From positions 1 to 64,000 of the forward strand of contig CAMCFB010000001.1 in the NCBI GenBank assembly GCA_945874125.1: 64,000 nt of DNA, written 5' to 3'. The stretch's first letter is position 1. The number at the start of each line of letters is the position of its first letter. The stretch is from Verrucomicrobia subdivision 6 bacterium. Lineage in GTDB: Bacteria; Verrucomicrobiota; Verrucomicrobiia; Methylacidiphilales; Verrucolacustridaceae. Shown piece after piece: positions 2,390-42,629 of this stretch. The translations under genes were made by a program, and so were the position numbers. The notes beneath the pieces are model-generated. The model saw nothing but the letters and a program-made list of their open reading frames with translations. It made no database searches and was not told where the DNA came from.

Positions 2390-3202
2390 TTAAACTGCGG
2401 AATCTCCACTCCGTTGGCCAGTTCCTTCCACCGCCGGGGCCTCCTCCGCGGGCACTCCGAGAATCCCATCCGGCGTTCGACGAATTCGGATCGGCTTCAG
2501 GGGCCCCTCTTGCACCGCCGAGAGTTGCCGGAGTCGAATCAACTCCAAAAGCGCCAAAAAAGTCACCACCACTTCGCCCCGCGAAGAAACGGTGCGAAAT
2601 AGCTCCTCAAAAAAGACCTCCTCGCCGGGCACCACTCGGTCCAAGAGAAACTCGATCTTCTGCCCTACGGTGAACTGCTCGTCTTCAAACTTACCCACCT
2701 TCGAGCGCTCCTCGACCGAGCGCAGAACTTTCTGAAACGCCCAGACCAGATCAAACATCGAGACTTGGCCCGGCCCCTGCATCGCCTGATTCACCACCAC
2801 CCGCTCTGGGATTCGTCCAAAGATGCGCGAATGCAACGCCTCCCGATCCCCCAACTGCCCCGCGGCCTCCTTGAACTTTCGGTATTCGATCAGTTGTCGG
2901 ATCAGCTCCCACTTCGGATCCTCATCCTCCACCTCCTCGGGCGGGCGATCCTGCACCGGCAGTAGGGTGCGACTTTTCAAATAAATTAGCGTGGCCGCCA
3001 TGACCAAAAACTCACCCGCCACCGCCAGATTCTCCTCCCGCATCTTGTCCAACCTCGCCAAATACTGTTCGGTCAACTTTTCTAACCGAATTTCATAGAT
3101 ATCCATTTCTTGCTCTTTGATCAGGTGCAGCAGTAAATCCAATGGGCCCGTAAAAGCGGAGAGCTCCACCCGTAGGGCTTCACTCCCGGGCGTCTCCAGC
3201 AT
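2390..3202 (-). CDS. scpA: Segregation and condensation protein A
   Basis: FTGPLDLLLHLIKEQEMDIYEI motif; start placed at MLETPG, just after the trpS stop. Confidence 0.9.
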   Translation of the reverse strand: MLETPGSEALRVELSAFTGPLDLLLHLIKEQEMDIYEIRLEKLTEQYLARLDKMREENLAVAGEFLVMAATLIYLKSRTLLPVQDRPPEEVEDEDPKWELIRQLIEYRKFKEAAGQLGDREALHSRIFGRIPERVVVNQAMQGPGQVSMFDLVWAFQKVLRSVEERSKVGKFEDEQFTVGQKIEFLLDRVVPGEEVFFEELFRTVSSRGEVVVTFLALLELIRLRQLSAVQEGPLKPIRIRRTPDGILGVPAEEAPAVEGTGQRSGDSAV

Positions 3203-40012: not shown

Positions 40013-40079
40013 CACACCTTAACCTCATTCGCTGTTCCAGAGTTGCCCCTCCACCAGACGTGTGTATTTTCCTAACTCA

Positions 40080-40319
40080 ATGGCTGACAAGACCCGCATC
40101 CTGAAAGAGAACGTCCCAGGCCAATGGTACGTCGACGATAGCTGCACCCCCTGCCACGTCTGCTTAGAAGAGGCTCCCAAACTTCTAAAATATAACGAGG
40201 ACCAAACCTACGTGTACTTTTTTAAACAACCGGAAACCCCGGAAGAGATCGATGCCGCCCAGCGTGCCCTCGATATCTGTCCCACGGGCTCCATTGGAAG
40301 TGATAACGCAAATGTCTGA
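40080..40319 (+). CDS. 4Fe-4S ferredoxin
   Basis: CTPCHVCLEEAPKLLKY...DICPTGSI single-cluster ferredoxin pattern. Confidence 0.88.
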   Translation: MADKTRILKENVPGQWYVDDSCTPCHVCLEEAPKLLKYNEDQTYVYFFKQPETPEEIDAAQRALDICPTGSIGSDNANV

Positions 40320-41442
40320 ACTCGCGACACCACCGGCGACTCCTGCTTTTAGCAGGAACAATCCGTTCTCCTCTCAGCTCAAAGAAAATCGTTGCCTCAA
40401 TCAGAAGGGTTCCAGCAAAGACACCCGCCACATCGTGATCGAGTTGGGCTCGTCCGGCCCCACCTACACCTGCGGGGACTCGCTGGGCGTGCTTCCCCGA
40501 AATCCAGATTCGCTCGTTCGCGAGTTTACCCAAAGATTAGGACTCCATGAAGACGCCGCTCTGCATGAAACCATCGCCACCTCCGCCGTCTTAAACCGTG
40601 TCGGCAAAAAGTTCGTCAAAGCGGTGGCGGAAAAAGCTACCGGTACTGCGCGGGATAAACTTCAGGCGATCTGTGCCGACGAAAAGAAGCTCGATGAATA
40701 TGTTTTCGACCGAGATGTCGTCGACGTCCTCCACGATGCCCCTGGCGTCCACCTCGAACCCTCAGAAATTCCAAATCTTCTTAACAAGATCGCCCCCCGA
40801 CTCTATTCGATCGCTTCATCGCCCGACCATCGTCCCGGCGAAGTTCATCTCACCGTCGCTCTGGTACAATATAACTCACATGGGCGGACAAAAAAAGGCC
40901 TCGCCTCGGGCTACTTGGCCGATCTTTCCGGCACCACCTCCATCCCCGTTTATGTCCAACCCACCCGACACTTTCACCTCCCCGCACCGGATCGGGATAT
41001 CATCATGGTCGGCCCGGGGACAGGGATTGCCCCGTTTCGCGCCTTTCTCCAACACCGCGCTCGTCACGGCCATACGGGTCGCAATTGGCTCTTCTTTGGC
41101 GACCAACACGCCAAGACCGACTTTCTCTATGCCGATGAATTCTCCGACGCGCAAAAGGCGGGTCATCTGCACAAGCTTTCGACTGCTTTCTCCCGCGATC
41201 AGGCCGACAAAATTTACGTCCAACATCGGATGGAGGAAGAAGGGGCAGAGCTGTGGCGCTGGTTGCAAAATGGCGCTTACTTCTATGTCTGCGGGGACGC
41301 CAAGCGAATGGCCAAGGACGTGCATGCTGCCCTGATCAAAATCGCGGCCCAACATGGCGGAAAAACCCCCGAGCAAGCGGAGGAGTGGGTCTCCGTTACA
41401 TTTTCTAAAACCGAAAAACGGTATCTGAAAGACGTGTACTAA
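40312..41442 (+). CDS. CysJ-like diflavin reductase module lacking flavodoxin domain (sulfite reductase flavoprotein-like FAD/NADPH reductase)
   Basis: PRLYSIASSPD FAD-binding, MVGPGTGIAPFRAFLQHRARHG, NWLFFGDQHAKTDFLYADEF, YFYVCGDAKRMAKDVHAAL. Confidence 0.88.
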   Translation: MSELATPPATPAFSRNNPFSSQLKENRCLNQKGSSKDTRHIVIELGSSGPTYTCGDSLGVLPRNPDSLVREFTQRLGLHEDAALHETIATSAVLNRVGKKFVKAVAEKATGTARDKLQAICADEKKLDEYVFDRDVVDVLHDAPGVHLEPSEIPNLLNKIAPRLYSIASSPDHRPGEVHLTVALVQYNSHGRTKKGLASGYLADLSGTTSIPVYVQPTRHFHLPAPDRDIIMVGPGTGIAPFRAFLQHRARHGHTGRNWLFFGDQHAKTDFLYADEFSDAQKAGHLHKLSTAFSRDQADKIYVQHRMEEEGAELWRWLQNGAYFYVCGDAKRMAKDVHAALIKIAAQHGGKTPEQAEEWVSVTFSKTEKRYLKDVY

Positions 41443-41448
41443 CACTCC

Positions 41449-41676
41449 ATGGCTCGTCGATCCCCATCAGGAAATCTCTTCGTGGGTTTGGTGGCGGGGG
41501 TTTTAATCTTGGTCGGAGTCGCTCTTTATTTGCGCGATCGCGGTCTTCTCCAGCTCCCCCAACCGACACAACCCGCGCCGGCCCAGCGGGCCGAAGATCT
41601 GGCAAAGAAGTATCCCGAGGCTGAGGCATTCGCCACCCCAAAAACCGCCGCCCCCGCAGATAAAAAAAAACGGTAG
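41449..41676 (+). CDS. Short TM protein; probable N-terminal membrane anchor of the following L,D-transpeptidase in another frame
   Basis: MARRSPSGNLFVGLVAGVLILVGVALYLRDRG TM; frame ends just after an A9 run; the -1 frame is open from that run into the downstream ORF. Confidence 0.65.
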   Translation: MARRSPSGNLFVGLVAGVLILVGVALYLRDRGLLQLPQPTQPAPAQRAEDLAKKYPEAEAFATPKTAAPADKKKR

Positions 41677-41732
41677 AGCAAGCGGACTCGGTCGAGGCCC
41701 CGTCCACCCCTATCGGCCCGCCGACCCCGCCC

Positions 41733-42629
41733 ATGGGCAAGGAGGTTCGCCGGGCTGAACCCATCGCGACCGATTCTCCACGTGACACCATTGCCATCGC
41801 CGGATGGCAAACCTTACTCGACCGAATGAACTTTTCTTGCGGAACCATCGATGGCCACTTCGCCAAACGCAGCCGTCGGGCCATCACGCAATTCCAAATT
41901 CATCGAACTTTAGCGACCACCGGTGAACTCGATATCGAGACACGAATCAACTTAGGGAAACCCGGGGACGCCTACATCGATTATATTCTCACGCCAGACG
42001 ACCTCCTTCGCGTGGTTCCTAAACCCAAAGGCTACGTCGCCATGAGCAAAGCGGCCGCTCTCGAATACAACGACCCTTGGGAAATGCTCTCCGAGAAAAC
42101 CCACTCCACCCCCTCCTTCTTAAAAGAGTTGAACCCGTCGGTCACCAACCTCGTGGCCGGAACGCAGCTGACCCTGCCCAATCTTGAGGGGACTCGCAAA
42201 CTTCCCCCCGTTTCGCGCATCGTGATTATGATCTCAGAAACCACTCTTTTGGCCTTCGATACGAACAATAAAGTCGTGGCCTGCTTTCCCTGCTCAATCG
42301 CCGCCAATAAAACCAAGGTTCCGAATGTGCCTTTGACTGTGGCGAATATTGCGCCGAATCCCAACTACACCTTCGACCCAAAAGTTCTTCTCCAAGTGGC
42401 CCAGCAGGAGGGCATCACCAACAAATTGGTGCTTCCCCCGGGGCCCAATAATCCTGTCGGGACGGCTTGGATTGGGCTCTCCCTCCAAGGGTACGGCATT
42501 CATGGGACACCCGAGCCGGAGGATATTTCCAGGACCGGATCCCACGGTTGCTTCCGACTGGCGAACTGGAACGCCACCAAGCTGGTGCGGGCGGTTCGCC
42601 CTGGCGTGCCCGTCGAGGTTGTGCCCTAG
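41733..42629 (+). CDS. L,D-transpeptidase (YkuD) with N-terminal peptidoglycan-binding-like region
   Basis: LLDRMNFSCGTIDGHFAKRSRRAITQFQ (PG_binding-like); catalytic GYGIHGTPEPEDISRTGSHGCFRLANWNA. Confidence 0.9.
   Translation: MGKEVRRAEPIATDSPRDTIAIAGWQTLLDRMNFSCGTIDGHFAKRSRRAITQFQIHRTLATTGELDIETRINLGKPGDAYIDYILTPDDLLRVVPKPKGYVAMSKAAALEYNDPWEMLSEKTHSTPSFLKELNPSVTNLVAGTQLTLPNLEGTRKLPPVSRIVIMISETTLLAFDTNNKVVACFPCSIAANKTKVPNVPLTVANIAPNPNYTFDPKVLLQVAQQEGITNKLVLPPGPNNPVGTAWIGLSLQGYGIHGTPEPEDISRTGSHGCFRLANWNATKLVRAVRPGVPVEVVP

Follow-up and report, generated by a model that had tools for sequence, protein, structure and literature searches.

A membrane-anchored L,D-transpeptidase gene probably expressed by programmed slippage at a conserved A9 run

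Transcriptional slippage at a run of nine A residues (A9) has been described in dnaX of Thermus thermophilus (PMC1088944), and transcriptional frameshifting at an A11 run, with 20-25% slippage, in tssM1 of Citrobacter rodentium, where both forms of the protein and their ratio are needed (PMC4256274). When RNA polymerase inserts bases in A/T runs, it mostly inserts just one (PMC5574713), and a run that stays at A9 from homologue to homologue is taken as the mark of purposeful slippage during transcription (PMC1088944). Among 108 bacterial genomes surveyed, the conserved A9 cases were in six IS elements and one further group of genes (PMC1088944). Documented examples of conserved transcriptional slippage in chromosomal genes that are not mobile are few.

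Here we analyzed a 64-kb stretch of DNA (the window) in which an A9 run separates a short membrane-anchor ORF from a YkuD-type L,D-transpeptidase ORF. We consider it probable that the two ORFs make up a single gene, encoding a membrane-anchored L,D-transpeptidase and expressed via programmed slippage at A9, most likely by RNA polymerase adding one A.

Architecture of the split gene

The features of the locus are as follows, with the support for each in parentheses.

41449..41676, + strand: anchor ORF, frame 0, 75 aa (ORF list, hydropathy, motif in 35 species, third-position excess)
41662..41670, + strand: candidate slippage site, the A9 of GAT AAA AAA AAA CGG, containing an in-phase A_AAA_AAA (conserved in relatives)
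41674..41676, + strand: frame-0 stop TAG, closing the predicted short anchor product (stop 1-8 codons past the run in 35/35 species)
41671..41732, + strand: Pro-rich linker in the -1 frame, VEQADSVEAPSTPIGPPTPP... (no -1 stops across 35 species; length variation by whole codons)
41733..42629, + strand: downstream ORF as listed, with peptidoglycan-binding and YkuD domains and the HGTPEPEDISRTGSHGCFRLANWN active-site block (Pfam PF01471 and PF03734; alignment)
41449..42629, + strand: putative slippage gene as a whole, which codes for a 393-aa anchored L,D-transpeptidase once an A is added at the run (ORFs, run, orthologues)

Translation confirmed the arrangement given in the original prediction. 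The 75-aa ORF (41449-41676) has an N-terminal transmembrane helix, a Pro-rich stretch, a YPEAEAF motif and a 3' end that reads GAT AAA AAA AAA CGG TAG (D K K K R stop). In the -1 frame, no stop interrupts the sequence from the A9 run (KKTVEQADS...GPPTPPMGKEVRRAEP) into 41733-42629, and one inserted A yields a fusion of (1178+1)/3 = 393 codons, the length that had been proposed. Hydropathy analysis of the anchor revealed one clear hydrophobic helix, LFVGLVAGVLILVGVALYL, with a mean Kyte-Doolittle value of 2.75, and a Pfam search of this ORF matched no family. In the downstream ORF, Pfam matches were obtained to YkuD (5.5e-14) and PG_binding_1 (3e-6), the YkuD (PF03734) score of 53.4 bits lying above the curated cut-off of 23.4, and the catalytic-block residues H257, S270, G272, C273 and R275 were invariant in the alignment. 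The nearest solved chain to this YkuD L,D-transpeptidase was 8da2_A, and the NCBIfam LdtE model scored below its own cut-off against the enzyme. As had been noted previously, the ORF at its listed start has no signal peptide. Export or anchoring outside the cytoplasm would depend on a slippage event that joins the anchor ORF to it, and the helix of that anchor is a prediction from hydropathy.

Immediately upstream lies a CysJ-like sulfite reductase flavoprotein gene (window 40252-41442) with FAD/NAD domains and without the flavodoxin part. A gap of 6 bases separates the end of this gene from the anchor ORF, which suggests that the two are co-transcribed, and a promoter scan detected no separate promoter. 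The C-terminal end of a CysJ-like gene also precedes the anchor in several congeners, and in isolate GAS474 the preceding gene is a different one (type II secretion F-like end). A small 4Fe-4S ferredoxin ORF (Fer4_13; window 40062-40319) lies just upstream of the CysJ-like gene and overlaps it.

Apart from the run at 41662-41670, the 64-kb window contains no A9 or T9. Shuffles predicted 2.4, and a lone A9 in the window is not unusual by itself. The junction run stands above chance because of its conservation, in 19/19 readable congeners and in 16 species of six other families. Such runs are rare: the genome to which the window belongs contains six A9/T9 runs, one of them at this junction. Another, a T9 lying in frame near codon 50 of a transporter-like ORF (L194, G000:C32:7569-7579), is a possible unprogrammed slippage site.

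Conservation of the run and of the frame relation

The gene was present in all 21 genomes of the genus, 19 of which were readable at the junction; in the other two, the contig starts inside the gene. In every readable congener (19/19), GAT is followed by exactly A9, with the anchor read in frame 0 and the enzyme lying in the -1 frame. The congener enzymes are down to about 81% identical, yet the A9 is unchanged, and the linker ranges from 23 to 52 codons ahead of the MGKEVRRAEP block or its equivalent. A search at the level of the order covered 62 genomes. The majority of the genomes are metagenome assemblies, and families carry anonymous labels (f1-f20), f1 being the window's own family, which consists of this genus only. 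Beyond the genus, 16 species of six other families had A9 or A10 at the same junction, and the split and the run were kept in families 47-54% identical. Altogether, 35 species in seven families carry the arrangement, with A9 in 29 and A10 in 6, and in 35/35 the anchor is in frame 0, a stop follows within 8 codons and the enzyme is in the -1 frame. These species share ancestry, and the counts are not 35 independent events.

Within the order, the arrangement was found in f2, f4, f5 (3/3), f6 (6/6 readable) and f9 (4/12), and outside it in a single genome (f20, G075) that belongs to a different order of the same class. The eight f9 genomes that make up the sister genus g13 carry the gene as an in-frame fusion lacking the run, and f3 and f7 are without this anchor type. 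In f8, no orthologue was found at the threshold used among 13 genomes (G037-G049), several of them complete; the gene has apparently been lost from this family, which probably includes methanotrophs. Genomes sampled elsewhere in the class lack an A9, and there the enzyme shares its frame with a signal peptide or membrane helix. An enzyme-domain tree, whose deepest long branches could not be placed with confidence, is most simply explained if the arrangement was gained once, at the base of the order or earlier, and lost three times. Because related lineages use an in-frame fusion (g13) or no anchor (f3, f7), the split arrangement is not essential to the enzyme.

Several genomes were noted separately. 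An unplaced metagenome-assembled genome (MAG) left out of the 35 (L055) has A10 and the xPDAEVF motif described below. A Pedosphaera-type MAG (L062), without that motif, has an A8 run around 2995-3010 with transmembrane and YkuD ORFs in different frames, which may be a separate instance of the arrangement or reflect an indel error. Four further sequences (L022, L024, L060, L071) are verrucomicrobial relatives under the wrong organism names (Paceibacterota, Akkermansia muciniphila, Klebsiella pneumoniae).

Two cultured isolates carry the split gene. One is Verrucomicrobium sp. GAS474, sequenced by PacBio at 178x (65.8% GC, 3,763,444 bases; PMC5786674), which we take to be our genome G027, a single contig of 3,763,444 bases; this complete genome contains three A9 runs, one of them at the anchor/enzyme junction. 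The other is LW23 (G058), isolated from the rice rhizoplane (PMC7251102) and placed in candidate family UBA1321 of Methylacidiphilales (PMC8706344), whose Illumina isolate assembly has the same split.

The original prediction left a choice among recoding, phase variation and an indel, with a homopolymer sequencing error as the main alternative to a biological cause. The comparison of orthologues that it proposed was decisive: the anchor ORF is not consistently missing from orthologues in this order, recoding is strongly supported, and sequencing error, recent indel and phase variation are ruled out. An error in sequencing or assembly, or a recent indel inactivating an intact fused gene, might be suspected given that the window comes from a metagenome-assembled genome. 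However, the same split recurs in assemblies from many projects, including the Illumina isolate LW23 and the complete 178x PacBio genome of GAS474, and purifying selection acts on an enzyme domain that is still intact; of all the explanations that we weighed, this one is the least credible. Hardly more credible is phase variation by replication slippage, in which cells with A9 would be OFF and cells with A10 or A7 ON within a population. Homopolymer runs are hypermutable, and this explanation would lead one to expect close relatives to differ in run length, some being ON and others OFF. The genus is instead uniformly A9, the readable congeners being in one state, and the run sits in the frame that requires a slip in 35/35 species. 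The enzyme is thus almost certainly made by deliberate slippage of the machinery that reads the gene, as judged from the preservation of split and run in 35 species of seven families, and the split is neither a broken gene nor a sequencing error.

Selection acts on the linker in its shifted frame. Across 2,467 linker codons of the 35 species, the -1 frame contained 0 stops, the anchor frame 57 and the third frame 52, while shuffled linkers averaged 42 and never fell below 24; linker length differs among species only by whole codons. Changes per codon position (first/second/third) among close congeners were 0.094/0.049/0.332 in the anchor, 0.069/0.064/0.199 in the linker and 0.112/0.056/0.467 in the enzyme. 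In most species outside f1, the frame-0 stop is the first codon past the run, and further along the anchor frame stops make up about 1% of codons (21/2,047). The early frame-0 stop, the third-position excess and the stop-free -1 linker together make both termination and shifted extension look maintained.

Predicted slippage mechanism and products

We propose that RNA polymerase inserts one extra A at the run in part of the mRNAs. Unslipped mRNA would then encode the 75-aa single-pass anchor peptide ending at the run, and slipped mRNA the 393-aa enzyme, composed of the transmembrane helix, a Pro-rich periplasmic linker, the peptidoglycan-binding domain and the YkuD domain. Slippage might serve to hold the enzyme at a low ratio to the empty anchor. 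The two ORFs, the run, their frame relation, the early stop and the selection on the linker frame can be read directly from the DNA; from these we infer that slippage, whatever its efficiency, does occur, that it is transcriptional rather than ribosomal and that it keeps the enzyme scarce relative to the empty anchor.

The same products could arise from programmed -1 ribosomal frameshifting with little or no transcriptional slippage, the event then taking place in the ribosome. An in-phase heptamer of the X_XXY_YYZ type, A_AAA_AAA, is present in frame-0 codons of 35/35 species, and A_AAA_AAG/A are known bacterial -1 shift sites (PMC5009743). However, no conserved stimulator of such frameshifting was found: a Shine-Dalgarno-like sequence occurs at the usual upstream distance in 6/35 species and is not conserved, and a scan of the 35 species that covered simple stems near the run found none conserved downstream (mean z -0.38). 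The run starts at codon position 1 (GAT AAA AAA AAA), 3 (GTA AAA AAA AAG) or 2 (GAA AAA AAA AAG), always leading to the -1 frame, and the change needed in every species is one inserted A. For these three phases, the A's needed for A_AAA_AAA are 9, 7 and 8, and those seen are 9, 9 and 10; where the phase allows 7 or 8, the run thus exceeds the heptamer's need by two A's, and A_AAA_AAG is never used without further A's. The runs are 9-10 long and never interrupted by AAG, and lysine codons outside the run are AAA in 59% of cases overall, 72% in the genus and 24% in f5. Transcriptional slippage is favored over ribosomal frameshifting because the runs are uninterrupted and at least nine long in three phases, with no conserved Shine-Dalgarno sequence or RNA stem. 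Run length and two-ORF organization are moreover conserved in homologues of seven families, in line with the criterion for purposeful slippage (PMC1088944). We therefore regard a purely ribosomal event as rather unlikely, though both processes could contribute.

The original prediction supposed that slippage could tune a ratio of anchored to soluble enzyme, and this part was not supported. A soluble enzyme is unlikely: relatives do not all keep the downstream start, and a signal sequence is lacking. The products are more likely an enzyme-less short anchor and the full anchored enzyme. A related explanation is that two genes are present, one for a small membrane peptide and one for a soluble L,D-transpeptidase translated independently by reinitiation, with the ATG at 41733, 57 bases past the anchor stop, as its start. 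Yet this ATG is ATC in one congener (G006) and GTC in another (G011), and three species (G025, G026, G028) have no ATG, GTG or TTG from the run to the peptidoglycan-binding domain. In addition, candidate starts are seldom preceded by a Shine-Dalgarno sequence, an enzyme without a signal peptide would be cytosolic, and the linker ahead of the ATG stays open in the -1 frame. We reject two separate genes as very improbable. A perfect internal Shine-Dalgarno-like sequence, AAGGAGGT at 41739-41746, lies in coding sequence whose codons vary in congeners (AAGGAAGT, AAAGAAGT and others), and was rejected as a candidate.

All 35 slip-type genes have a motif with the family consensus xPDAEVF (YPEAEAF in the window), 9-54 residues before the anchor end. 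Its presence in all slip-type genes and its absence from the fused genus g13, a contrast resting on one evolutionary event, hint that the motif has a function connected with the short product, although this is speculative. As a tentative extension, one that we hold to be possible and somewhat doubtful, the short anchor may be a dedicated product that, via xPDAEVF, partners or restrains the full-length enzyme in the membrane, with polymerase slippage fixing the stoichiometry of a cell-wall cross-linking machine of two components throughout the order.

If our reading of transcriptional slippage at A9 is true, slippage would be a stable way to dose cell-wall remodelling over several families. The gene is likely annotated as two fragments in these genomes, and since isolates GAS474 and LW23 carry it, direct testing is possible.

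Comparison with known slippage systems

In the open-access literature, we found no earlier report of slippage or frameshifting in L,D-transpeptidases, YkuD proteins, peptidoglycan enzymes or this group of bacteria. Like known YkuD L,D-transpeptidases, the enzyme has a YkuD catalytic domain with an SHGCFR block and a peptidoglycan-binding domain; unlike them, it is split over two frames, with an anchor whose xPDAEVF motif has no Pfam match. E. coli dnaX-type -1 ribosomal frameshifting (A_AAA_AAG, Shine-Dalgarno, stem-loop) shares the in-phase heptamer (here A_AAA_AAA) and the -1 outcome, whereas the present sites lie in longer unbroken A runs, with no conserved upstream Shine-Dalgarno sequence or downstream stem. 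Shigella mxiE/spa13 and IS-element genes likewise consist of two overlapping ORFs that slippage at A or T runs joins into the long product (PMC1088944, PMC5009743), but are plasmid or mobile genes, while here the gene is a chromosomal, order-wide one for a cell-wall enzyme.

The dnaX gene of T. thermophilus is likewise a chromosomal housekeeping gene with A9 in the coding strand, and mixed run lengths in the mRNA would give short and long products in both cases. There, however, the unslipped frame gives the long product and here the short one; the protein is different, and slippage at our locus is predicted from the sequence. C. rodentium tssM1, like our gene, encodes a membrane-anchored envelope protein ending at a poly-A run, to which slippage adds a C-terminal periplasmic part. 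It has been described in two species only. Here, by contrast, several families retain the site, and what slippage would add is an entire cell-wall enzyme. Events of this kind are already known; what is unusual here is the depth of conservation in a non-mobile cell-wall gene.
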